Below are positions 3,505 through 25,614 of a stretch of 28,078 bases of DNA, piece by piece (the stretch's first letter is position 1; each line of letters starts with the position of its first letter). A program made the position numbers and the translations under genes. Under the pieces are notes generated by a model. It did no database searches and was not told where the DNA came from. It saw nothing but the letters and a program-made list of their open reading frames with translations. The stretch is from a virus: positions 1 through 28,078 of the IMG/VR virus record IMGVR_UViG_3300025087_000265, one strand, 5' to 3'.

Positions 3505-5359
3505 TTCCTCCTTGCTGTGTTTGTCCAAACATACCTCCCAGCTGTTCCAGTAACTGTTGTACTCCTGCGCCCTGTTGCCCAACTTGCCCGTAAGCCTCCC
3601 TAATCATTTCAGGTAATTCGGGAACATAACTTTCAACATCAGCTTTTTCAAACGACCTTACCAAGTCTTTCGCCATGTTGTAGTAAGACCGAATCACGCC
3701 ATACACAAACTCTTGAAGTTCAGGCGGCATCTGAACCATTGGGTTCATCACCGTAGTAAGAAGCTGTATCATCTGTGAGAAAATACTACCAAGCTGTTGA
3801 AGCATCATGAGATTGGATTGCTTCTCGATCTCTTTATTAACACTCAAGGAAGTGGCAGCACAGGCAAATTGATAGTTTTCCCTGAGATATTCTGCATCCA
3901 ACCCACTAGGAAGCATAATTTCAGCCACAGTACCTTTTTCATCATCCTCCACGGTAAATATCTTTTCAGGCCGATACTGCGCATACAGTTCAACTACCTG
4001 ATATGCCAGTTCTGCAATAGCTTTGCGTGAGTTATTGATAACCAAGTCAAAGTGCCTGCCTGATTCTTGGAGCAACGCAAGAGTACCAGTTGCCGTTGCT
4101 CTACTCTTCATAGTGGCACTCTCTTTACCCACCGTATAATCTGTGACTTTGGTTCTACGCTCATGATAGTCACGCAGCATAGTATGAAGAACAAAGTTGG
4201 ATTGGTGAACATCCCCGAGGGAAAATTCCTGAAGATCAGTAACATCATCAAGATCAAAAACCTTACCGGGATATACCGTCATTTCCCGTTTGTCTTTCTC
4301 TCCCCCTCTCCTGCGCTTGAAGCATTTGGCATTGGCAAGGGTCATATTGTCTATCGTCTGGTTAAAAGCCGTATTGATTGCGTCCTGAAGATGTTCACTC
4401 AGTTCACAAATGCCCTTACCGTAAATCCTACTCGCTCTCCCCTGATACACGTTACGGACAAAGGGCCGCTTTCCATGTTTATACGGAAGATGAATCCAAC
4501 GCAAGATGGTATCTGTTTCCAGATGAACCGTTATCACGGTCCTTTCAGGATAACCATCATCGTCTATGTCATAGTCAAGATGAACCTCATAGATAGTAAA
4601 CTCATTCAGTGCGTCATGCGAAGTCTCATGGATCTTCTCAGCCTTTTGCTTTTCGCCCTGTACGTCCTTACCAGTCTGTGCATCGGCAGTCTTTGAATCC
4701 TGTTTCCCTTCCAACTTGTCTACATTCTGGTATATGCCAGCTTTACCTTTTGCTTTTAATGCAGTCCAGTGCAGCTTAAGCCTGTGTGCAACCCAAGGTG
4801 CAGTCTGAAGATCCTTCGCATTAGAGGGGAAAATCAGATCCTCGATAGCTACTATTTCAGTCTTGGCATCGTCCCGCTCAACGATCTTGCCGCCCACCTT
4901 CAAGCTGTCAGTGTCCCAAATGGCTTTCAAATAACCAGTTCCCATTTTATTCTTCTCAAGAATCCACTGGGAACCTACCTCATGGAAATCCACCACGTTA
5001 AGGAATATCTGCTCAAGAAACTGCTCGATCTTGGCGCAGCTATCCTTATCTACACCTTTCTTTTTAGGCTTGACCTGAATGTACGGATGAAGGCTAAGGA
5101 GGGTGTTAACCTCCCTAGCGTGAATGGTTTCTACTGCTATGGCAGTGAGGGGCAAGGAAATGTTGCTACACCCCGGCCACGGAAAATCCTTTTGCTCAGG
5201 CAGAATTTCTTCATACTGCTTGACCCACTTAATCCACCTGTCCTCAAGCTGGCTCCTGTCATTTAAGGCAGTGAGAATCTGGCCCTTGACATACATGAGA
5301 ACTTCATCACGCATTTCCGCACTTGCCTTTACAACAAGGCTATTCTTTTTATCGGCCAT
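3470..5359 (-). CDS. Portal protein
   Basis: The 629-residue product is the ring-shaped channel through which DNA enters and leaves the head. The segments KDFPWPGCSNISLPLTAIAV and ETIHAREVNTLLSLHPYIQV, the GTGYLKAIWDTD strand, the FVRNVYQGRASRIYGKGICE region and the long helical part after residue 420 are typical of large P22-like portals. The C-terminus is Gln/Gly-rich (GQVGQQGAGVQQLLEQLGG). Length fits the P22-like group of about 600-750 residues. ATG at 5359 follows GAGGTATTAA. It overlaps the downstream small gene by 35 bases. The acid-rich stretch around residues 215-245 is probably a surface loop. Confidence 0.88.
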   Translation of the reverse strand: MADKKNSLVVKASAEMRDEVLMYVKGQILTALNDRSQLEDRWIKWVKQYEEILPEQKDFPWPGCSNISLPLTAIAVETIHAREVNTLLSLHPYIQVKPKKKGVDKDSCAKIEQFLEQIFLNVVDFHEVGSQWILEKNKMGTGYLKAIWDTDSLKVGGKIVERDDAKTEIVAIEDLIFPSNAKDLQTAPWVAHRLKLHWTALKAKGKAGIYQNVDKLEGKQDSKTADAQTGKDVQGEKQKAEKIHETSHDALNEFTIYEVHLDYDIDDDGYPERTVITVHLETDTILRWIHLPYKHGKRPFVRNVYQGRASRIYGKGICELSEHLQDAINTAFNQTIDNMTLANAKCFKRRRGGEKDKREMTVYPGKVFDLDDVTDLQEFSLGDVHQSNFVLHTMLRDYHERRTKVTDYTVGKESATMKSRATATGTLALLQESGRHFDLVINNSRKAIAELAYQVVELYAQYRPEKIFTVEDDEKGTVAEIMLPSGLDAEYLRENYQFACAATSLSVNKEIEKQSNLMMLQQLGSIFSQMIQLLTTVMNPMVQMPPELQEFVYGVIRSYYNMAKDLVRSFEKADVESYVPELPEMIREAYGQVGQQGAGVQQLLEQLGGMFGQTQQGGNAAVPTGLAEE

Positions 5360-5671: not shown

Positions 5672-8600
5672 TTAGTATTCGTAAACACCTATATCCGGTG
5701 CGCTGCCGTTGTAAGGGAGCGAAACCGCCGCCCCATTTGTCCAAGTGATTACTGAACCAACAGTTATAGTGTTGCCTGAAATGCCAGTTATTGTAGCAGT
5801 TTGTGACCCTACTTGTATAGTATCTCCTGTAAGCCAACCAAACCCAGAAAAGAACCATCCAGCATCTGCCACAGTAAAAGTGTTACCCCCGACACTGTTA
5901 GTTGCACTTGTAACAGTAGTCAAGGTTGCTCCTGCGTCTATAGTTGGACTACCCACTAAAGGCGCATGTGCAGCATTAAGCAATGGTGCCTGCTGGATAT
6001 TACCAACATAGTATGAAGGATATGCAGTCTGCAACGCTGCCACTGTGCGCGGCGATCCATCTACCCATGTCACAGCCCCAGACCCTATGCTGTCTTTATA
6101 AAACAGATTATTATTAAAATAGTTTTGATAGGAAGCGGCAACAAGCATTGCCATATTCTCTGTACCTGCCGTGGCACTACCATCTTGCATAGTCTGGAAA
6201 AGGTAGCCACCGACATTATAAAATATATTGTTTTTAATATAGTTATTACTTGTCCCACCACTATTGTTACCTATGTACACACCTTGGCCACCAGATATGA
6301 CGTTAGTAACCAAGTTATTATAAACATGGTTCCCTGTTACGGGCCATCCCCCGTTCGCCTCTAACATGATACCCCTTGAATCAAGGCAAGTCTTAGACTT
6401 AATAATATTTCTTCTGACTATATTATTTGTTGAATCTATAGTTAAACCACCCTGAGTTCTGGCTTGACTTAGCCCACTATTCTGACCGCACCTTACATAC
6501 GGAAGAGCATGATCCCACCCGATTAAGATATTACCATCTAGCAGGTTGTTTTTCCCATTCTCAAGCGCAGCGTAAGAGGAACCGCCATAGCTATAGATGA
6601 TATTATTCCTGAATACATTATAGTCAGCAGTACCTTGGCCATCGGCAGACAATGACGCGCCCTGTGTTGCTGTTGCATTATGCCCACCGGAGACTGTTAT
6701 AGTATTCCCTTCAAATAGGTTATAGTTTGCATAAGCCCGAAGATTAATAGCATCGTTCATGACATTGCTAACAGTCAGTGTGACAATACTATTCTTTACC
6801 GTGTTATGATGTGACGCTCCACTTGGCATGAAGTTAGAGCTATACAGATAAATTGCTGGACTCCATGATCCATATGTAGAGTAGACCTCACAGCTATCAA
6901 TTGTAATATAGCTTGCCCCCGCCAGCAATACTACTGTCCCTGTACCAGAGGACAACTTGAGATTTTTTATGGTTGCATAAGAACGGCTCATAGCATTCAC
7001 GCCAGAAAGTGTAGGCTTGGCCGTAGCTGTCCCATATGAAGTATAAACAATAGGGCTGGTCGATGTACCAGTTCTGGGGATAAGCGTTTCATACCATGTA
7101 TCGCCTTTCCTAAACCCAATAACTTTTCCAGCAACAAATGCAGTGTTGTTTACCTTTCCAACAGTACACCACGGAGTTGCACTTGAAGTCCCATTATAGC
7201 TATCACTGCACCCTGAAGTTGCTACATAATAGTCTGGTACTTGCTCTATTGGTATTGTTTGCCATGTAACCCATTGGCTATTTTTATATACTTTGACAGT
7301 TGGTACTTTCCATACGCCATTTAAATATGTCTTGAGTGGAGCTATTCCCCAACTATTATTAACATGGGCCTTCAGCCCACCAGAAAGGCTAACTGTTGAA
7401 AACCCAATTGTCTCTCCCCCTGTTATATAAGCCCCCATAACTAAAGGGTACGTTCCCCCTATCCCATTCTGAGCATAAACACTTCTTTTAAAATCAGTTG
7501 CCAAAGAGAAAGTCCCAGTCTCATTAAGGAATTGAGGGTCAGTATTTATTGAATGGCTGTCTCCCCCTGCCAATAAGGTATTACATTTTACTTTCCAAGC
7601 ATCAAGGGTGCTATAAATTGCACCCTGATAAACCCATCGAGGTGTTCCAGTTGTGTAATAATTGTTGTAGTCAATAGTAGTAAATGTAAACGTAGCGGCA
7701 CCATACGGCCAGGACAAAAAAGAGTTCACTGGGGAACTAGATATGTTATTAAGAAACTTTGCAGGCATACTAACTGAGGTCCATTTATTAAAATCAGCTA
7801 CCTTATTAGCGTAAAATGTATTGTTATAAATTTCTATATCAGTTGCCAATGTCACGAATGTGATCGCGCCATACTCAGCCGAATTTGAGGTGTTATTGCC
7901 TTTGAAAATATTTTGATAAATTCTTGTCCCTGTAGAAGTCCCTGCATTTGCTTGGTTAGCCATCCAAGCCCCACCATAAGCATTGTTATAAATAAAATTT
8001 TTCCTTACTATTGTGTTTGTTTGAGAATCTTTCAAGGTCATTGCGGGACCGCCACTATTATATATATCATTATTTTCTATGACTAAATTAGTGGCAAGAT
8101 ATACCATTATCAACGCACTGTTGGTATATTGGACCCCCCTTAACGAATTATCATGTAATCTATTATTTTGAATGACACAGTTAGAGCAACCTTGGACCCA
8201 TATAACCTCTCCTTGTCCAATCCCACTCCAACTATCTCCCCCAATTGAAATATCACAATTTTTTACTATTGTCCCAGTCGCCTCCATCACTACAATCCCT
8301 TGGATAGTCAACCCATCTATAATAGTACCATCACGTTTATTAGTCCCATCGAAATCACCTATAACTCCGTTGGTTGGCATTACCCCGCCATTGCCTACCA
8401 AAGTTACAGTTTCTCCTGAATAAGCTTTAATGGTAATATTATCGGCTGGCGGGACTATCGCTGCCGATTGCCCCATTGTTGCTGTAGTCGTGACTTGATA
8501 TGTCCCACCACGCAAAATTATAGTATCATTCGCAGATAATCTACTAACTCCATACAAAGGAGTGGCCCAAGGTGCACCTATCGCACCTGTCCCTACCGTA

Positions 8601-10602: not shown

Positions 10603-10989
10603 TTACCTCATTCTAAAATAAGAGTTTGTTGCCATCCATGACTTAGCATCTGCTACTGCCAGCCATATAGTAGGCATTCTGAATGTTCCCATATACCCAA
10701 AAGACGCAACCCTTACCTGAAGTTGTGTCCCTACTGTAACGTTCCAATAACCGTAAGAAATTATAGAGTTAATACCGAACGGGTTTTCAGGATCTTCTAT
10801 ACCTTGAGAGTCATAGATAATATTCCCTTCAGAGTCTAACAAATCATCCCCAAAAGAGTCAGTAATCCCACCAAGAGAAATAGTAGCATCCATAACGTCA
10901 AGATAACCGTTACTCACTATAATAGGATTTAATGCAGAAGCTGGCTCACGCCAATATACCCCTGCTATCGCTCTGCGATCAAACCCCAT
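10603..10989 (-). CDS. Hypothetical protein in the fibre block, 128 aa
   Basis: A beta-rich protein with an acid-rich central loop (GDDLLDSEGNIIYDSQGIED, about 48-67) and hydrophobic strands at both ends. No known motif is recognised. ATG at 10989 has GGAGG six bases upstream, so it is preferred to the in-frame GTG at 11001. It overlaps the end of the preceding gene by 25 bases and stops four bases before the tail-fibre start. Context suggests a small tail or fibre-attachment component; this is inference. Confidence 0.6.
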   Translation of the reverse strand: MGFDRRAIAGVYWREPASALNPIIVSNGYLDVMDATISLGGITDSFGDDLLDSEGNIIYDSQGIEDPENPFGINSIISYGYWNVTVGTQLQVRVASFGYMGTFRMPTIWLAVADAKSWMATNSYFRMR

Positions 10990-11243
10990 AACTTCCTCCA
11001 CCCTGTTTTTTCTTCTTTAGATCTCGGCTCCGTTATTGCCGAAAAACAACTATCTACTTCAGCCTTGGTCAAGTCCTGCATCAGCTGAGCACATAAAGCA
11101 TCCCCCGATCTAAAGTCTCTGCCTTCTTTGGAGTACTTAACAATAAGGGCAATTCCAAGTTGAGGATTCATACCTTGACTCTTGAGCCATGCAAGATATC
11201 TTTCTTCAGTATAGTTATATCTCTGTAAGAACTCTGTAATCAT
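10965..11243 (-). CDS. Hypothetical protein, 92 aa
   Basis: A soluble, helix-rich protein with no recognisable motif. Its ATG overlaps the stop of the 430-residue upstream gene (TAATG), so translation is coupled, and its 3' end overlaps the next gene by 25 bases. Placement within the fibre block is the only hint of function. Confidence 0.6.
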   Translation of the reverse strand: MITEFLQRYNYTEERYLAWLKSQGMNPQLGIALIVKYSKEGRDFRSGDALCAQLMQDLTKAEVDSCFSAITEPRSKEEKTGWRKLWGLIAER

Positions 11244-19119: not shown

Positions 19120-19392
19120 ATGAATTTTTTTTGTTTTTTTTCTTGCTTTCGGTTTTCGATTCGTGGGATATTCGGATCAACGGAAGGAAACGGAATCCGG
19201 AGCCGAGATCCTCAGACTGAGAGGGTCGATAAAAATCTGAATAGCAGGAGTACGGGGCAACGGTTAGGTCCGGCCAGCTTAGACTGGGTAATTAGGCAAA
19301 CCAGAGCCACCTATAGACAACAGAGGCTATTCAGAAACATGCAAGACCGGGAAATGGAATATTACCGGATAGCAAGCCAGAATCCCCAGTGA
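19120..19392 (+). CDS. Doubtful 90-codon open frame
   Basis: The frame runs from ATG 19120 through two poly-T runs (giving FF and CFF) and then a basic, helix-like part (DWVIRQTRATYRQQRLFRNM). There is no ribosome site before the ATG and the first 20 residues look like translated low-complexity DNA. The C-terminal part alone could be coding, but no internal start with a good signal is seen. I keep it as a weak possibility only. Confidence 0.25.
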   Translation: MNFFCFFSCFRFSIRGIFGSTEGNGIRSRDPQTERVDKNLNSRSTGQRLGPASLDWVIRQTRATYRQQRLFRNMQDREMEYYRIASQNPQ

Positions 19393-19479
19393 CTAGCGAT
19401 AGAGCTACACGGTAGAGGTAGATGGCAAACGAGAGTCCAGAACATTAGCGGCTCAGTTAAATGTCTGACACTGGGGGAA

Positions 19480-19510
19480 AACCTTGATACTGTAACCTAT
19501 CTAGCATGGG
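19480..19510 (+). repeat. Inverted repeat A, 5' arm
   Basis: Begins AACCTTGATACTGTAACC and ends AGCATGGG. It pairs with 20187-20217 at 28 of 31 positions; two of the three mismatches would be G-U pairs in RNA. The two arms enclose two small genes and the whole of pair B. Confidence 0.9.
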
Positions 19511-19517
19511 TACACAG

Positions 19518-19545
19518 TCCTTTGGTTATTCTCCGATAGAGCCTG
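19518..19545 (+). repeat. Inverted repeat B, 5' arm
   Basis: Begins TCCTTTGGTTATTCTCC and ends GATAGAGCCTG. It pairs with 19785-19812 at 25 of 28 positions (two further positions are G-U in RNA). It lies just upstream of the ribosome site of the 64-residue gene. Confidence 0.9.
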
Positions 19546-19574
19546 AAACCAAGACTCTTTCAAGGAGATAAGCC

Positions 19575-19769
19575 ATGTTAGTAGAAATCAAAGGAAACAA
19601 ACTGATTATCACCGCTGATATCAACGATCTTCAGAAGCTGCCGGATAGTACCACTGGCAAAACCCTGATTGTTTTCTCAACCCACGGCAATATCCCCACA
19701 GCTTGCATCGTGAATGGTAAACCGCTTGTGGTGAGCATTAACGCATACGTCAAAAAAGACAAGAAATAA
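19575..19769 (+). CDS. Small conserved phage protein, 64 aa
   Basis: A compact beta-rich protein: MLVEIKGNKLIITADIND, then GKTLIVFSTHGNIPTACI, then VNGKPLVVSINAYVKK. Short proteins with the KGNKL...SGKTL.V.STHGN...NGKP pattern recur in phages and mobile elements, but I know no function. AAGGAG stands eight bases before the ATG. The gene is bracketed by inverted repeat B and, with the next gene, by inverted repeat A. Confidence 0.75.
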   Translation: MLVEIKGNKLIITADINDLQKLPDSTTGKTLIVFSTHGNIPTACIVNGKPLVVSINAYVKKDKK

Positions 19770-19784
19770 CCCTTACAACCAACA

Positions 19785-19812
19785 CAGGCTCTATCAGAGA
19801 GTAGCCAAAGGA
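19785..19812 (+). repeat. Inverted repeat B, 3' arm
   Basis: Begins CAGGCTCTATCAGAGAG. Complement of 19518-19545. It starts 15 bases after the stop of the 64-residue gene and ends 16 bases before the next ATG, just upstream of the AAGGAG of that gene. Confidence 0.9.
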
Positions 19813-19828
19813 TCTAAGGAGATACATC

Positions 19829-20179
19829 ATGCTAAAGATAAAACTAGATGATAGGGTAAAGTTAGTAATATCGGGATGTTGTGACACCCCTAGTTGGCAT
19901 TATGGTGGGACAATCATCGCAGCAGAGACATTATCGGGTATCACCTACTATGGGGTCACAGACGAAAACGTCAATATCACATATTGGCATAATTCATCTT
20001 GTTTTGTACAAGACAATAAAGCGACAGAGAAACAAGCGTATGAGGCATGGAAAGCCAAAGTGACCAAAGGAGACGATGAGCTTGACACAGACTTTTATGT
20101 CCATACCACACCGGGGATGTACAAGACTTACAACGGACCCAGAATAGGGGAGATACTGGGGAGACGGAGCCATGACTAA
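19829..20179 (+). CDS. Hypothetical protein, 116 aa
   Basis: A soluble mixed alpha/beta protein, beginning MLKIKLDDRVKLVISGCCDT, with Trp/Tyr-rich middle (ITYYGVTDENVNITYWHN). No known motif is recognised. AAGGAG precedes the ATG with nine-base spacing. It sits between the B and A 3' arms of the inverted repeats, so it shares the A loop with the 64-residue gene. Confidence 0.65.
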   Translation: MLKIKLDDRVKLVISGCCDTPSWHYGGTIIAAETLSGITYYGVTDENVNITYWHNSSCFVQDNKATEKQAYEAWKAKVTKGDDELDTDFYVHTTPGMYKTYNGPRIGEILGRRSHD

Positions 20180-20186
20180 ACAGACT

Positions 20187-20217
20187 CCCATGCTGGATAA
20201 GTTATAGTATCAAGGTT
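20187..20217 (+). repeat. Inverted repeat A, 3' arm
   Basis: Begins CCCATGCTGGATAAG and ends ATCAAGGTT. Complement of 19480-19510, about 680 bases away. It ends two bases before the next inverted repeat (C) begins. Confidence 0.9.
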
Positions 20218-20219
20218 AA

Positions 20220-20250
20220 ATCTCGCTCCTTTCTGCATAGCATGGTGGTG
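20220..20250 (+). repeat. Inverted repeat C, 5' arm
   Basis: ATCTCGCTCCTTTCTG (20220-20235), five unpaired bases, then CATGGTGGTG (20241-20250). Both blocks are perfectly complementary to the 3' arm at 20982-21013. Confidence 0.9.
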
Positions 20251-20267
20251 TCTAAAAGGGGATCACC

Positions 20268-20723
20268 ATGAGAAAGACTATGAGATTTAAAGTTATCAAG
20301 GCAGTATACGAGACGTTATCGGTAAATGAACCAGATATAGCCGAGTATGCAAGCCACCATTACACATCATCTGCACAAGTGGCTGATTTCCTTTACTTTC
20401 TTAAACCAGAGTGCAAAGAGTATTTTATCACCCTACACCTTGACGGAAAGAATCGGATACTCTGTCTTGATATGGTATCACAGGGAAGTTTGAACCAGAG
20501 TCTTGTCCATCCCAGAGAAGTATTCAAAACAGCCATGCTTTCTTCAGCAGCGGCTATGATTCTGGTTCATAACCATCCTTCAGGAGATCCAACACCATCA
20601 GGAGAAGATAAAGAGCTAACACACAGATTAATAGAAGGTGCGGAAATACTGGGGATCAGGGTATTAGATCACATCATCATCGGAGATAGTTACTTTTCGT
20701 TTGCAGAAAGGGGATTGATATGA
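20268..20723 (+). CDS. radC: RadC-type JAB/MPN domain protein
   Basis: The 151-residue product is a short RadC-like protein of the kind found on phages and other mobile elements. Residues 80-110 show VHPREVFKTAMLSSAAAM then ILVHNHPSGDPTPS, containing the metal-binding JAMM motif (His101, His103, Asp107) and a conserved Glu84. The later ILGIRVLDHIIIGD is also typical. There is no N-terminal helix-hairpin-helix of cellular RadC. Its biochemical role is not settled in the family. GGGGA precedes the ATG. The gene and its partner (20720-20974) are bracketed by inverted repeat C. Confidence 0.88.
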   Translation: MRKTMRFKVIKAVYETLSVNEPDIAEYASHHYTSSAQVADFLYFLKPECKEYFITLHLDGKNRILCLDMVSQGSLNQSLVHPREVFKTAMLSSAAAMILVHNHPSGDPTPSGEDKELTHRLIEGAEILGIRVLDHIIIGDSYFSFAERGLI

Positions 20724-20974
20724 AGGCATACGATAAAGAAAACAAACAATGGGAGGCATGGGCATGGCCGGGTGGTTATCCTATTTATCATGTGACAAAA
20801 GATTGTGGAGTGCTTTGCACAAAATGTGCGAATGACAACTACGATCTAACATTAGGGGATGATCCACAATGGCACATTATAGGTTCTGATATTAACTACG
20901 AAGACCCAGAGCTATTTTGTGATAACTGCTATGAACGAATTGAGTCAGCCTATGCAGAACCAGAAGAAGAATAA
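20720..20974 (+). CDS. Cys-containing protein coupled to radC, 84 aa
   Basis: An acidic protein with GGYPIYHVTKDCGVLCTKCA (about 18-37) and FCDNCYERIESAYAEPEEE at the end, giving two CxxC pairs that may hold one zinc. Its ATG overlaps the radC stop (ATGA). Similar Cys-pair proteins with the phrase KDCGVLC.KCA occur in phage early regions; no function is known to me. Confidence 0.7.
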   Translation: MKAYDKENKQWEAWAWPGGYPIYHVTKDCGVLCTKCANDNYDLTLGDDPQWHIIGSDINYEDPELFCDNCYERIESAYAEPEEE

Positions 20975-20981
20975 TCATTAC

Positions 20982-21013
20982 CACCACCATGTTAATACAG
21001 AAAGGAGCGAGAT
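20982..21013 (+). repeat. Inverted repeat C, 3' arm
   Basis: CACCACCATG (20982-20991), six unpaired bases, then CAGAAAGGAGCGAGAT (20998-21013). Complement of 20220-20250, closing a loop of about 730 bases that holds radC and the 84-residue gene. The D 5' arm follows with no gap. Confidence 0.9.
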
Positions 21014-21040
21014 CCTTTTGTCTAGTGTCTTATGGCATGG
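21014..21040 (+). repeat. Inverted repeat D, 5' arm
   Basis: CCTTTTG, five partly matched bases, then TGTCTTATGGCATGG. It pairs with 22134-22160 at 24 of 27 positions. Located just upstream of the ribosome site of the DUF932 gene. Confidence 0.9.
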
Positions 21041-21061
21041 CTCAGATAAAGGAGACATATC

Positions 21062-22117
21062 ATGAGTAACGAGACTACAGCAAGTAGAGAGTGGGCAACA
21101 AGACCCGCAGACGAAAGGATGCTTACATTAGAGGAAGCGTATACCAAGGCACGGACCAGAGCAGAGAACAGCACCGTAAAGGTAACTGCTACGGACATGC
21201 TGAAAGTGTACGGTACAGAGCAGAATGAGCTTATCATCAACACCGAATTAGGCCCAAAAATCTTCACCAACTGGTCATTTGGGCAGGTTTCCCAGATAGC
21301 CGGTGCTCCTGCCTCTTATCTCAGAAAACTCCCGTCAGAACTGGCAGCAGCTTGCTTGAATGACGGATTCCAGAGGACTCCGAGAGAGAGAACGATGCTT
21401 ATGGCGAATGGGAACGATACCCTCAGATGCGCAACATCGGAAACTTATGGCAGGATTTATGACCATCAGGTTATCCGATCCATCATGAAGGCAAACCATG
21501 ATAACACATGGAAGATCCCGGCAGCATCATACGCCACGCAGAACCCGCGCAGAGCTTCCACAATCTACGTCAGCGACCGGGATATTTTCATCTTCTTGGT
21601 TGACGACCAGCATCCTATCGAGGTGGGCGGCAAGCCCATGTTCAGAGGCTTCTACACTTGGAACAGTGAGGTAGGGGCGCAGGTTTGGGGTTTGGCAACT
21701 TTCTTGTACGAGTATGTATGCGATAACAGGATTATTTGGGGCATGACGAATAGAAACGAAATTCGTGTGCGCCACACCTCCGGTGGGCCTGAAAGATTCG
21801 AACTGGAAGGGGAAAAAGCACTGATCGAGTATGCCAACCAGAGTGCAGCACCCCTTGAGGAGCAGATACGCCGGGCGCAGAACCTGAAGATCGGCAAGGA
21901 TGAGGATGAGGTTAAAGACTTCCTCAAAAAACGTGGCCTTACCGGAGCAACAGCAGAGAACGCAGTAAAAGCAGCTAAGATGGAAGGGAACGATTTCCTT
22001 ACCTCTTGGGGCATTGCAGAAGGGCTTACGGCCCATGCAAGAAGCATCGACCACACAGATGATCGGGTGAAACTGGAAAGGGAAGCAGGTAAGATCCTTG
22101 ACTACACCCTCAAATAA
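21062..22117 (+). CDS. DUF932 protein (phage/plasmid-like family)
   Basis: The 351-residue product matches the DUF932 family, common on phages and plasmids: IFTNWSFGQVSQIAGAPASY near residue 68, the LMANGNDTLRCATSETYGRI block (about 112-131), DDQHPIEVGG-KPMFRGFYTW and NSEVGAQVWGLATFLYEYVC with DNRIIWG. The C-terminal third is helical. The molecular function is not established; association with anti-defence or DNA metabolism is suggested for some relatives. AAAGGAGA precedes the ATG. The gene is bracketed by inverted repeat D. Confidence 0.85.
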   Translation: MSNETTASREWATRPADERMLTLEEAYTKARTRAENSTVKVTATDMLKVYGTEQNELIINTELGPKIFTNWSFGQVSQIAGAPASYLRKLPSELAAACLNDGFQRTPRERTMLMANGNDTLRCATSETYGRIYDHQVIRSIMKANHDNTWKIPAASYATQNPRRASTIYVSDRDIFIFLVDDQHPIEVGGKPMFRGFYTWNSEVGAQVWGLATFLYEYVCDNRIIWGMTNRNEIRVRHTSGGPERFELEGEKALIEYANQSAAPLEEQIRRAQNLKIGKDEDEVKDFLKKRGLTGATAENAVKAAKMEGNDFLTSWGIAEGLTAHARSIDHTDDRVKLEREAGKILDYTLK

Positions 22118-22133
22118 CAACTGGCACGATAAT

Positions 22134-22160
22134 CCATGCCATAAGACAGTATGCAAAAGG
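22134..22160 (+). repeat. Inverted repeat D, 3' arm
   Basis: CCATGCCATAAGACA followed by five partly matched bases and CAAAAGG. Complement of 21014-21040, closing a loop of about 1.1 kb that holds only the DUF932 gene. Starts 16 bases after its stop. Confidence 0.9.
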
Positions 22161-22183
22161 GGAGGTGATAGATGAAGAAATAG
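22161..22183 (+). other. Strong ribosome site followed by a three-codon minigene
   Basis: GGAGGTGAT (22161-22169), a near-full match to the 16S rRNA 3' end, is followed after two bases by ATG AAG AAA TAG (22172-22183). An overlapping GTG frame would instead give about 12 codons. It lies in the 194-base gap between the DUF932 gene and the next small gene. It may be a leader or minigene, or the strong match may be chance. Confidence 0.3.
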
Positions 22184-22261
22184 CGCAAAGACCAAGTTTT
22201 TAACAGGATTTTAGTATTAAAGTAGTTAAAAGCGTAGTTTGTTTGACCCTGAAAGAGTCAG

Positions 22262-22290
22262 AAGGGAAGTGCTGTATTGGCTTCCCTTTT
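22262..22290 (+). terminator. Probable rho-independent terminator or attenuator
   Basis: AAGGGAAG (22262-22269) pairs perfectly with CTTCCCTT (22281-22288) around an 11-base loop and ends in a short T run (22287-22290). It closes the DUF932 cassette and lies 22 bases before the next gene, so transcription may end or be thinned here. The T run is short, which lowers confidence. Confidence 0.5.
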
Positions 22291-22311
22291 GGTTTGTAAG
22301 GAACAACAGAA

Positions 22312-23818: not shown

Positions 23819-23946
23819 GTATCAATGAAACAGAATCATACTGCAACTGTCCAAGATGCCGTGCGCTTAAATGGTACTGGTATTTAAGGACACAAAAGTC
23901 ACCTATCGAGTTAGAGGCAGACAGACTCGCTCAAAGAGGTTTTTGA
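23815..23946 (+). CDS. Mini-protein with CxCxxC, 43 aa
   Basis: The N-terminal CNCPRC is followed by ALKWYWYLRTQ and a charged helix. Its ATG overlaps the previous stop (ATGA), and its stop overlaps the recombinase ATG (TGATG), so it is translated just before that enzyme. Function unknown. Confidence 0.55.
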   Translation: MSINETESYCNCPRCRALKWYWYLRTQKSPIELEADRLAQRGF

Positions 23947-24416
23947 TGCGAGTCGGTTATCTGAGGGTATCGACAGAGGGACAAGATGTAGAAAACCAAC
24001 GTCATGCTATCGGAATATGTGATGAATGGGTATCTGAGTGCGTATCAGGCAAGGCAAGTTGGAGAAGTCGTAAACTTGGTACGTTGATAACAGCCTATCT
24101 TAAAACCGGAGATACCTTAGTAGTATCCGAGCTTTCACGCTTGGGGAGGTCATTCTATGAGATCATTGAAATCCTTTCCATTTTGGAGAATAGGAAGGTT
24201 CACGTCATTTCCATCAAGGAAAATTTTAACTTGTCGGATGATATACAGAGTAAGGTTATCGCTTTCGCGTTTTCTTTGGCAGCGGAGATTGAACGTCAGC
24301 TTATCAGCCAGAGAACTAAGGAGGCGTTGTCTTACAAGCGGAGCCAAGGCGTGATCCTTGGTAGACCAGAGGGGTCTAAAGACAAGAAACCACGAATAAG
24401 GAGGAAAGCAGAATGA
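23946..24416 (+). CDS. Serine recombinase (resolvase/invertase catalytic domain), 156 aa
   Basis: The catalytic serine lies in YLRVSTEGQD (Ser9) and the arginine motif SELSRLGRSF (Arg65, Arg68) follows at the expected distance; IKENFNL and the long E-helix with EIERQLISQRTKEAL are also present. The C-terminus ends in a basic linker (GRPEGSKDKKPRIRRKAE) with almost none of the usual helix-turn-helix, so it is shorter than the 180-190 residue resolvases and invertases. ATG at 23946 is preferred over a longer frame because of AGAGG and the coupled stop. It may invert or resolve DNA, or act as a regulator. Confidence 0.8.
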   Translation: MRVGYLRVSTEGQDVENQRHAIGICDEWVSECVSGKASWRSRKLGTLITAYLKTGDTLVVSELSRLGRSFYEIIEILSILENRKVHVISIKENFNLSDDIQSKVIAFAFSLAAEIERQLISQRTKEALSYKRSQGVILGRPEGSKDKKPRIRRKAE

Positions 24417-24619: not shown

Positions 24620-24939
24620 TGGCTGAGCAATCAAGACCACAAGGAAAGAACCACTGCCTGATACGGAGTGCAGTACATCGTGAAAAAGGCGTGTTTCTGA
24701 AACAGGCACTACGTTCTGCCAAGAACAAGGCAAAGAATGTAGCAATGAACAAAGCACAAGGCGATCCATATGCCGGTATGCCCATAAAGTGTGAGGAACA
24801 CCACCGGGGACGGTTACACGGCAAATGGAAATGGGTAGACGTGCCAACTGAGATTAAAGTCTTGGATAAAGAGACAAAAGATCGAATGATTACCAAGATC
24901 ATACCCTTACCTCTTTGGAGACGAGTACCCGGTACATGA
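24619..24939 (+). CDS. Hypothetical basic protein, 106 aa
   Basis: Basic and rich in Lys/Arg/His (HREKGVFLKQALRSAKNKAK, then HHRGRLHGKWKWVDVPTEIK). It may bind nucleic acid, but no fold is recognisable. The start is coupled to the previous stop and its own stop overlaps the next ATG (ATGA). Confidence 0.6.
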   Translation: MAEQSRPQGKNHCLIRSAVHREKGVFLKQALRSAKNKAKNVAMNKAQGDPYAGMPIKCEEHHRGRLHGKWKWVDVPTEIKVLDKETKDRMITKIIPLPLWRRVPGT

Positions 24940-25436
24940 TAGATTACCTACAAGAATCACGTAAGTGGGCATTCAGGCTTTACACCCTAGAGGAAGTCTG
25001 CAAGATTCTACGCATTAGCAAGGAAAAGCTCTATGTACTTAAGAAAATAGGGCTTTTCCGAGCTATGCACAGACGGGCGGGGTTTGGTAAAAGCAGAGGG
25101 GGGGAAACTTACTACACTGATCGGCAAGTATTTGAAGGGATTATGTACCTCTTTCCAGACATAACTACGATAGAGGTTGACTTTCTGAATTCTCAGATTA
25201 CGGAGGTGCCTGACAATGCCACGTTTAAGGAAAGACGGAAGCCCCGCCAGAAAACCCGGCAGAAAAAGCAGGGCGGAGCAAATGGCGGTAGATTCAACGA
25301 TAGAGTTAGAGAAGGACAAGAACGGAAAGTTCGCGGTCGCAAGAGGAAAGTGTACACAGTTGATCCCAGTTGTTATACCAGACGGGATAGCACCGATAGA
25401 CTACCTGACCAAGAAGCAATTGACCCTGATCGGTAG
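24936..25436 (+). CDS. MerR/excisionase-like DNA-binding protein with long overlap, 166 aa
   Basis: Residues about 12-75 fit a MerR-type winged helix: YTLEEVCKILRISKEKLYVL then KKIGLFRAM, and YYTDRQVFEGIMYLF. The remaining 70 residues are extremely basic (RKPRQKTRQKKQGGANGGRF) and share 221 bases with the next gene in another frame. ATG 24936 overlaps the previous stop (ATGA); the ribosome site is weak. Likely a regulator, or a recognition protein such as an excisionase or small terminase relative. The true 3' end may be shorter if the overlap reflects a frameshift. Confidence 0.55.
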   Translation: MIDYLQESRKWAFRLYTLEEVCKILRISKEKLYVLKKIGLFRAMHRRAGFGKSRGGETYYTDRQVFEGIMYLFPDITTIEVDFLNSQITEVPDNATFKERRKPRQKTRQKKQGGANGGRFNDRVREGQERKVRGRKRKVYTVDPSCYTRRDSTDRLPDQEAIDPDR

Positions 25437-25614
25437 GATAGAACGGATAGGGATAGAGGGAAGGCCAGAGGATATGGTGAGATTAAAGGCGAATCAGATA
25501 CTCCTTCAGAAAGTCATGCCTGATCTTACCAAGAGCGAAACGCTGGTTACTATTTCCCCTTACGAACGCATTGCTAAGGCAATAGAGGACGCAGAAAAAG
25601 ATGGAAAATCTTAA
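25216..25614 (+). CDS. Hypothetical protein, 132 aa, possible small-terminase-like
   Basis: A very basic N-terminus (MPRLRKDGSPARKPGRKSRA) is followed by beta-like and helical parts, with the C-terminal LKANQILLQKVMPDLTKSE that resembles the end of several phage DNA-packaging small subunits. That resemblance is weak. GGAGG nine bases before ATG 25216 fixes the start. It overlaps the MerR-like gene by 221 bases. Confidence 0.55.
   Translation: MPRLRKDGSPARKPGRKSRAEQMAVDSTIELEKDKNGKFAVARGKCTQLIPVVIPDGIAPIDYLTKKQLTLIGRIERIGIEGRPEDMVRLKANQILLQKVMPDLTKSETLVTISPYERIAKAIEDAEKDGKS

Follow-up and report, generated by a model that had tools for sequence, protein, structure and literature searches.

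The locus at positions 19480-22160 of the viral record IMGVR_UViG_3300025087_000265 raises the question of why successive protein genes should be enclosed by long inverted repeats, and whether such repeats act in RNA or in DNA. Analyses of the window (the whole stretch of 28,078 nucleotides that was analysed) and of one related contig showed that the pairs are present, exceed what chance gives, are kept with changed sequence in the relative, are mutually orthogonal and form in the minimum-energy fold.

Inverted-repeat pairs and genes of the array

All four pairs described in an earlier note were recovered, with their arms on the plus strand. The arms of pair A, which makes an outer stem round genes 1 and 2, lie at 19480-19510 (A5) and 20187-20217 (A3), those of pair B at 19518-19545 (B5) and 19785-19812 (B3), those of pair C at 20220-20250 (C5) and 20982-21013 (C3) and those of pair D at 21014-21040 (D5) and 22134-22160 (D3). 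Comparison of one arm with the reverse complement of the other gave identities of 28/31 for pair A, 25/28 for pair B and 24/27 for pair D, while 29 of 32 alignment columns matched in pair C, with one gap. The order of the array is A5 B5 gene 1 B3 gene 2 A3, C5 radC orf C3, D5 DUF932 D3, the unit bounded by A being gene 1 (within B) and then gene 2. The pairs had been called nested, which is loosely worded, since only B lies inside another pair, A, and the pairs A, C and D follow one another in series; the anatomy described under that word was correct. All arms are intergenic, 16-29 nt upstream of a start codon or 7-16 nt downstream of a stop codon, and adjacent arms are separated by 7 nt (A5-B5), 2 nt (A3-C5) and 0 nt (C3-D5), exactly as had been claimed. 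The window genes to the right of the array are tightly packed and carry no such arms.

In the inverted-repeat scan the four pairs scored 25, 22, 22 and 21 and no further window pair scored above 16, the score of the next best. The best score in dinucleotide shuffles of the window (n=150) averaged 14.8 with a maximum of 20, and within the record the pairs had blastn E-values of 6.5e-6 to 9.5e-4. The earlier claim that chance does not give these pairs is borne out, no shuffle having reached their scores, as is the claim that each pair has a different sequence, the pairs being mutually dissimilar by duplex energy.

Analysis of the enclosed units by profile matches indicated that they are protein genes and not rRNA, and Rfam gave no match in the window, with rRNA, group I/II intron and ribozyme families included. 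Gene 1 (19575..19769, plus strand as are all those that follow) encodes 64 aa of no family and lies within pair B, and gene 2 (19829..20179) encodes 116 aa. The C pair encloses a radC-like JAB-domain gene (20268..20723; Pfam RadC, E 2e-42) and a gene for an 84 aa protein (20720..20974; PHROG 18452, E 3.6e-16), and the D pair a DUF932-like gene (21062..22117; PHROG 1362, E 8.5e-37), for which the Pfam DUF932 match (E 4e-4) falls below the Pfam cut-off. Past the last stem, at 22161-22178, a strong ribosome-binding site is followed only by ATG AAG AAA TAG. A hairpin with a U-rich 3' side at 22255..22295 (plus strand; predicted fold -18.3 kcal/mol, z -4.1) is likely the intrinsic terminator of the array transcript, as judged from the fold; it was not reported by a consensus terminator scan restricted to loops of at most 8 nt.

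Layout, pairing and leader RNA in a related phage

A single protein query with DUF932 identified the contig IMGVR_UViG_3300003358_000027 (L009), whose DUF932 is 73% identical, and the DUF932 searches gave no other close relative carrying the operon. The scan of L009 revealed exactly four strong pairs, all in series and closing every cassette, so that over both phages all eight cassettes are closed by their own pair. Pair 1 (4120-4152/4430-4462) encloses a protein unrelated to window gene 1, pair 2 (4466-4494/5017-5045) a kinase-like protein, pair 3 (5046-5076/5841-5871) radC and one ORF, and pair 4 (5873-5902/6989-7017) DUF932; adjacent arms are spaced by 3, 0 and 1 nt. The radC and DUF932 cassettes are homologous to those of the window with extensively changed arms, while the two other cassettes hold different genes. 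A terminator-like hairpin at L009 4117-4133 overlaps the first 5' arm and could be an attenuator competing with the long-range stem.

The eight stems have arms of 27-33 nt and duplex energies of -39 to -49 kcal/mol with their own partners, while a 5' arm with any non-partner 3' arm gave -7 to -27 kcal/mol and shuffled arms averaged -11. Partners exchanged between the two phages gave only -26.5/-23.0 kcal/mol for the radC stem and -24.5/-18.5 kcal/mol for the DUF932 stem. Pairing survived a change in both arms at 7 positions of the radC stem and 3 of the DUF932 stem; in the two first cassettes, where homology of the arms is uncertain, 9 and 13 such positions were counted. The arm alignments are short and were checked by hand only, and two phages supply few independent events. 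On this comparison of sequences the flanking helix is conserved by covariation, in two phages only. The check proposed in the note, co-variation of the arms in a relative, gave extensive change with pairing retained and self-pairing far above cross-pairing; neither uncompensated divergence nor a missing arm, which would have refuted it, was seen in L009, and the retained pairing supports long-range stems that close the cassettes.

At the matching place after the DUF932 cassette (7020-7239) L009 has a 64 aa gene with a C-terminus similar to window gene 2, whose own C-terminus resembles L009 7045-7239. That this C-terminus lies inside cassette A in the window but outside any cassette in L009 suggests that a gene has moved in or out of a cassette. 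Elsewhere, both phages carry an overlapping gene pair in different frames with an overlap of about 220 nt (window 24915-25436 / 25216-25614; L009 10330-10854 / 10610-11038), and both its proteins are conserved between them (55% and 54% identity).

Upstream of the array, 1.3 kb of intergenic sequence separates divergent genes, and its last part contains a conserved RNA. The core of this structured leader (19233..19372, plus strand) shares blocks of 15-20 identical nt with its counterpart at L009 3912-4055, and both are predicted to form a closing helix, though of differing sequence, UCUGAAUAGC/GCUAUUCAGA in the window vs UCAGG.UGGC/GCCACCUGA in L009. A second domain predicted by folding (19383..19477, plus strand; closed by CCCCAGUG/CACUGGGG) ends beside arm A5 and has no alignable counterpart in L009. 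No Rfam family matched the leader RNA, and its covariance model recovered only the window phage and L009 in 770 kb of sequence. In viral contigs, three patterns of the leader (two exact, one gapped) retrieved L009 only, apart from a chance coding match in another contig (L012); five genome-contig matches to the gapped pattern were also chance matches. The leader could be antiterminator-like or a new ncRNA.

The cassette-closing array was found only in the window phage and L009, in searches that did not extend to metagenome contigs. Neither the pairs nor the leader RNA nor DUF932 occurred with relatives of the Cas4-type exonuclease (62-68% identical), one of them on a 47 kb contig, the layout was absent from the DUF932 loci of phages and plasmids that were examined, and 80 phage radC loci (about 600 kb) contained no comparable array. 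These radC loci do hold other strong pairs, apparently GC-rich coding or dispersed repeats. One strong pair (7247-7285 / 7731-7769; score 23) lies over gene starts in L045, a contig from an unrelated phage that has a Cas4-type exonuclease.

RNA-level closure and its possible roles

Unconstrained minimum-energy folds of the 3076 and 3139 nt transcripts contained all eight stems, such folds being the only basis for whole-transcript structure. On the coding strand, transition-type mismatches (n=17) comprised 12 G.U vs 5 A.C (one-sided p 0.07), and the sense RNA duplex was more stable than the antisense one in seven of the eight stems. Ribosome-binding site and stop codon lie within the loop and outside the stem in 8/8 cassettes, with 12-29 nt between 5' arm and ATG and 7-16 nt between stop and 3' arm. 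Counted from the outer end, seven stems carry a true defect (G.U excluded) within positions 17-20, a bias with a permutation P of about 0.01 for the best window of positions and 0.08 without the two homologous stems. The wobble and defect-position biases are only suggestive, the latter being modest. A role at the mRNA level is favoured because of the G.U lean, the sense stability, the minimum-energy folds and the arms that spare ribosome-binding site and stop codon, and we are highly confident that closure takes place in RNA. Among the roles listed in the earlier note, mRNA processing or protection fits best, while gene exchange fits poorly, every pair having its own sequence.

We consider processing by RNase III or a similar enzyme likeliest, in view of the rRNA-precursor layout and the even closer likeness to the 23S rRNA intervening sequence of Coxiella. 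The stems would be processed to give mRNAs with ends still paired; this is inferred without transcript or cleavage data, and the case for it is evenly balanced. According to this proposal, an early phage operon would be transcribed into one RNA of about 3 kb, the leader RNA first and then the cassettes, and both flanks of each cassette would pair into a 27-33 bp leader-trailer helix like those of 16S and 23S rRNA. RNase III or a similar double-strand endonuclease would cut mid-stem and free each cassette as a separate mRNA, the linker RNA being almost wholly double-stranded because adjacent stems abut. The Shine-Dalgarno sequence and the stop codon, sited in the loop, would survive cutting and leave the mRNA translatable, while the stem remnant would hold the 5' and 3' ends paired and resist exonucleases and 5'-end-dependent decay. 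Against processing it may be said that the evidence comes from two phages only, and that local intergenic hairpins as in T7, where the intercistronic hairpins do not enclose genes, would be enough for cutting, so that long-range closure needs an additional reason.

Circumstantial support for processing comes from the kinase-like protein of L009, on a profile match only. This 165 aa protein (4507-5004), encoded within a pair-closed cassette, has the kinase-like motifs GEGLYCQVWEV...AVKI, DLHPNN and MDP and matched PHROG 15752, a family of T7-type (gp0.7-type) kinases annotated 'protein kinase ... positively regulates RNaseIII' (E 5.9e-9 over 74 residues), and PHROG 18305 (E 0.003), while Pfam, PDB sequences and phage-genome tblastn gave no match. 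Its structure model is poor (pLDDT 48), and the Foldseek search, with a best E of 0.06 and many kinases or aminoglycoside phosphotransferases among the top matches, therefore carries no weight. No kinase was found among the window cassette genes. The kinase of T7 makes RNase III 7.4-fold more efficient in vitro (PMC4858673).

The stems might instead stay uncut and insulate each gene as a folding domain in a closed-loop mRNA, the stop codon lying beside its own ribosome-binding site, with the consequence that ribosomes would recycle onto the same gene without coupling to the next. The tight geometry of arm, ATG and stop in all eight cassettes and the fact that 5' arms pair well solely with their own 3' arms accord with this, and in E. 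coli ORF-wide structural units are already a feature of operon mRNAs (PMC5318159). However, duplexes of 30 bp are well suited to RNase III, so that the stems would have to evade cutting, the C loop holds two genes, and gene 2 shares A with the nested B; we regard uncut loops as possible but rather unlikely.

Template switching between inverted repeats in DNA (quasi-palindrome correction) could keep arms complementary without any selected RNA role, and would explain why matched arms can have any sequence and change in concert, as is observed. The 240-1100 nt between the arms are far for template switching, however, and the coding-strand G.U excess, the persistence of the defect at a similar stem position and the finding that arms stand exactly at the gene borders of all cassettes and are absent from the rest of both contigs make this explanation improbable. 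Self-regulation, by which 5'/3' pairing would reduce translation of its own mRNA or trigger its decay, has a precedent in S. aureus icaR, where 5'-3' UTR pairing is combined with RNase III cleavage (PMC3868564), but the icaR pairing covers the ribosome-binding site that the phage stems leave free in 8/8 cassettes, and we consider it very doubtful. Least credible are mobile cassettes or invertible segments with recombination sites at their ends (terminal inverted repeats or serine recombinase sites): although the arms are similar in length to recombinase sites, a DNA-invertase-family (serine recombinase) gene lies 1.7 kb downstream (23871-24416; PHROG 125, E 1e-38) with a homologue in L009, and the cassette genes differ in part between the phages, there is no common site (off-diagonal duplexes being the weak ones given above), arms round the same gene differ between the phages, and directly abutting arms show no target-site duplication.

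Significance and comparison with known systems

Long leader-trailer helices are a hallmark of stable RNA processing. With RNase III processing as the preferred reading, we tentatively suggest, short of holding it probable, an undescribed mRNA architecture in which the operon is a series of mRNA modules with sealed ends, each individually addressable and with a private leader-trailer helix, behind a new structured leader and possibly with the help of a phage kinase acting on RNase III. If this is true, the packaging of genes into self-contained mRNA modules, with arms that keep pairing despite sequence change, is within the reach of phages. The array makes it testable whether end-to-end mRNA closure controls stability or translation in bacteria, and it suggests a simple design for polycistronic expression with insulation between genes. 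Searches of open-access full text returned no described case (subscription journals were mostly outside their scope), and the remark that the layout matches no named phage system stands uncontradicted. Integron cassettes, transposon terminal inverted repeats and invertase sites were rejected, as they call for a shared end sequence recognised by a recombinase and the pairs are mutually dissimilar.

The array resembles the pre-16S and pre-23S rRNA in its tandem units within a single transcript, its long-range covarying helices of 25-40 bp and the structured leader that comes first (PMC10250234). In rRNA the leader-trailer helices, of 25-40 bp for 16S and 27 bp for 23S, are cut by RNase III (PMC10250234), and unit flanks complementary over about 25-40 bp, as in rRNA, are found in 8/8 phage cassettes. 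What sets the array apart from rRNA precursors is that its units are protein genes carrying ribosome-binding sites, that one of its pairs is nested and that its helices abut directly; its cleavage is unproven.

The intervening sequence of Coxiella burnetii 23S rRNA is alike in that a stem of similar length and with defects encloses an ORF in its loop; this stem measures 28 bp, contains one mismatch and a bulge, and is cut in the middle by RNase III (PMC4990558). By contrast, the intervening sequence is a single insert in rRNA that loses its Shine-Dalgarno sequence on cutting and is probably untranslated, while the phage array is a chain of functional-looking genes that retain theirs in the loop. 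The window array itself is not such an intervening sequence, which would have to be inserted in 23S rRNA, the window being without rRNA.

T7 early mRNA differs from the array in having local intercistronic hairpins in place of gene-enclosing stems. It is likewise a phage early polycistron, and T7 also has an RNase III-stimulating kinase (PMC4858673). In the icaR mRNA of S. aureus the UTRs of one mRNA pair into an RNase III substrate (PMC3868564), but the pairing is short, inhibitory and over the ribosome-binding site of a single gene. The operon mRNAs of E. coli resemble the array in that every ORF is its own structural unit (PMC5318159); there the structure is diffuse and intrinsic to the ORF, while in the phage array each unit has a dedicated closing helix.
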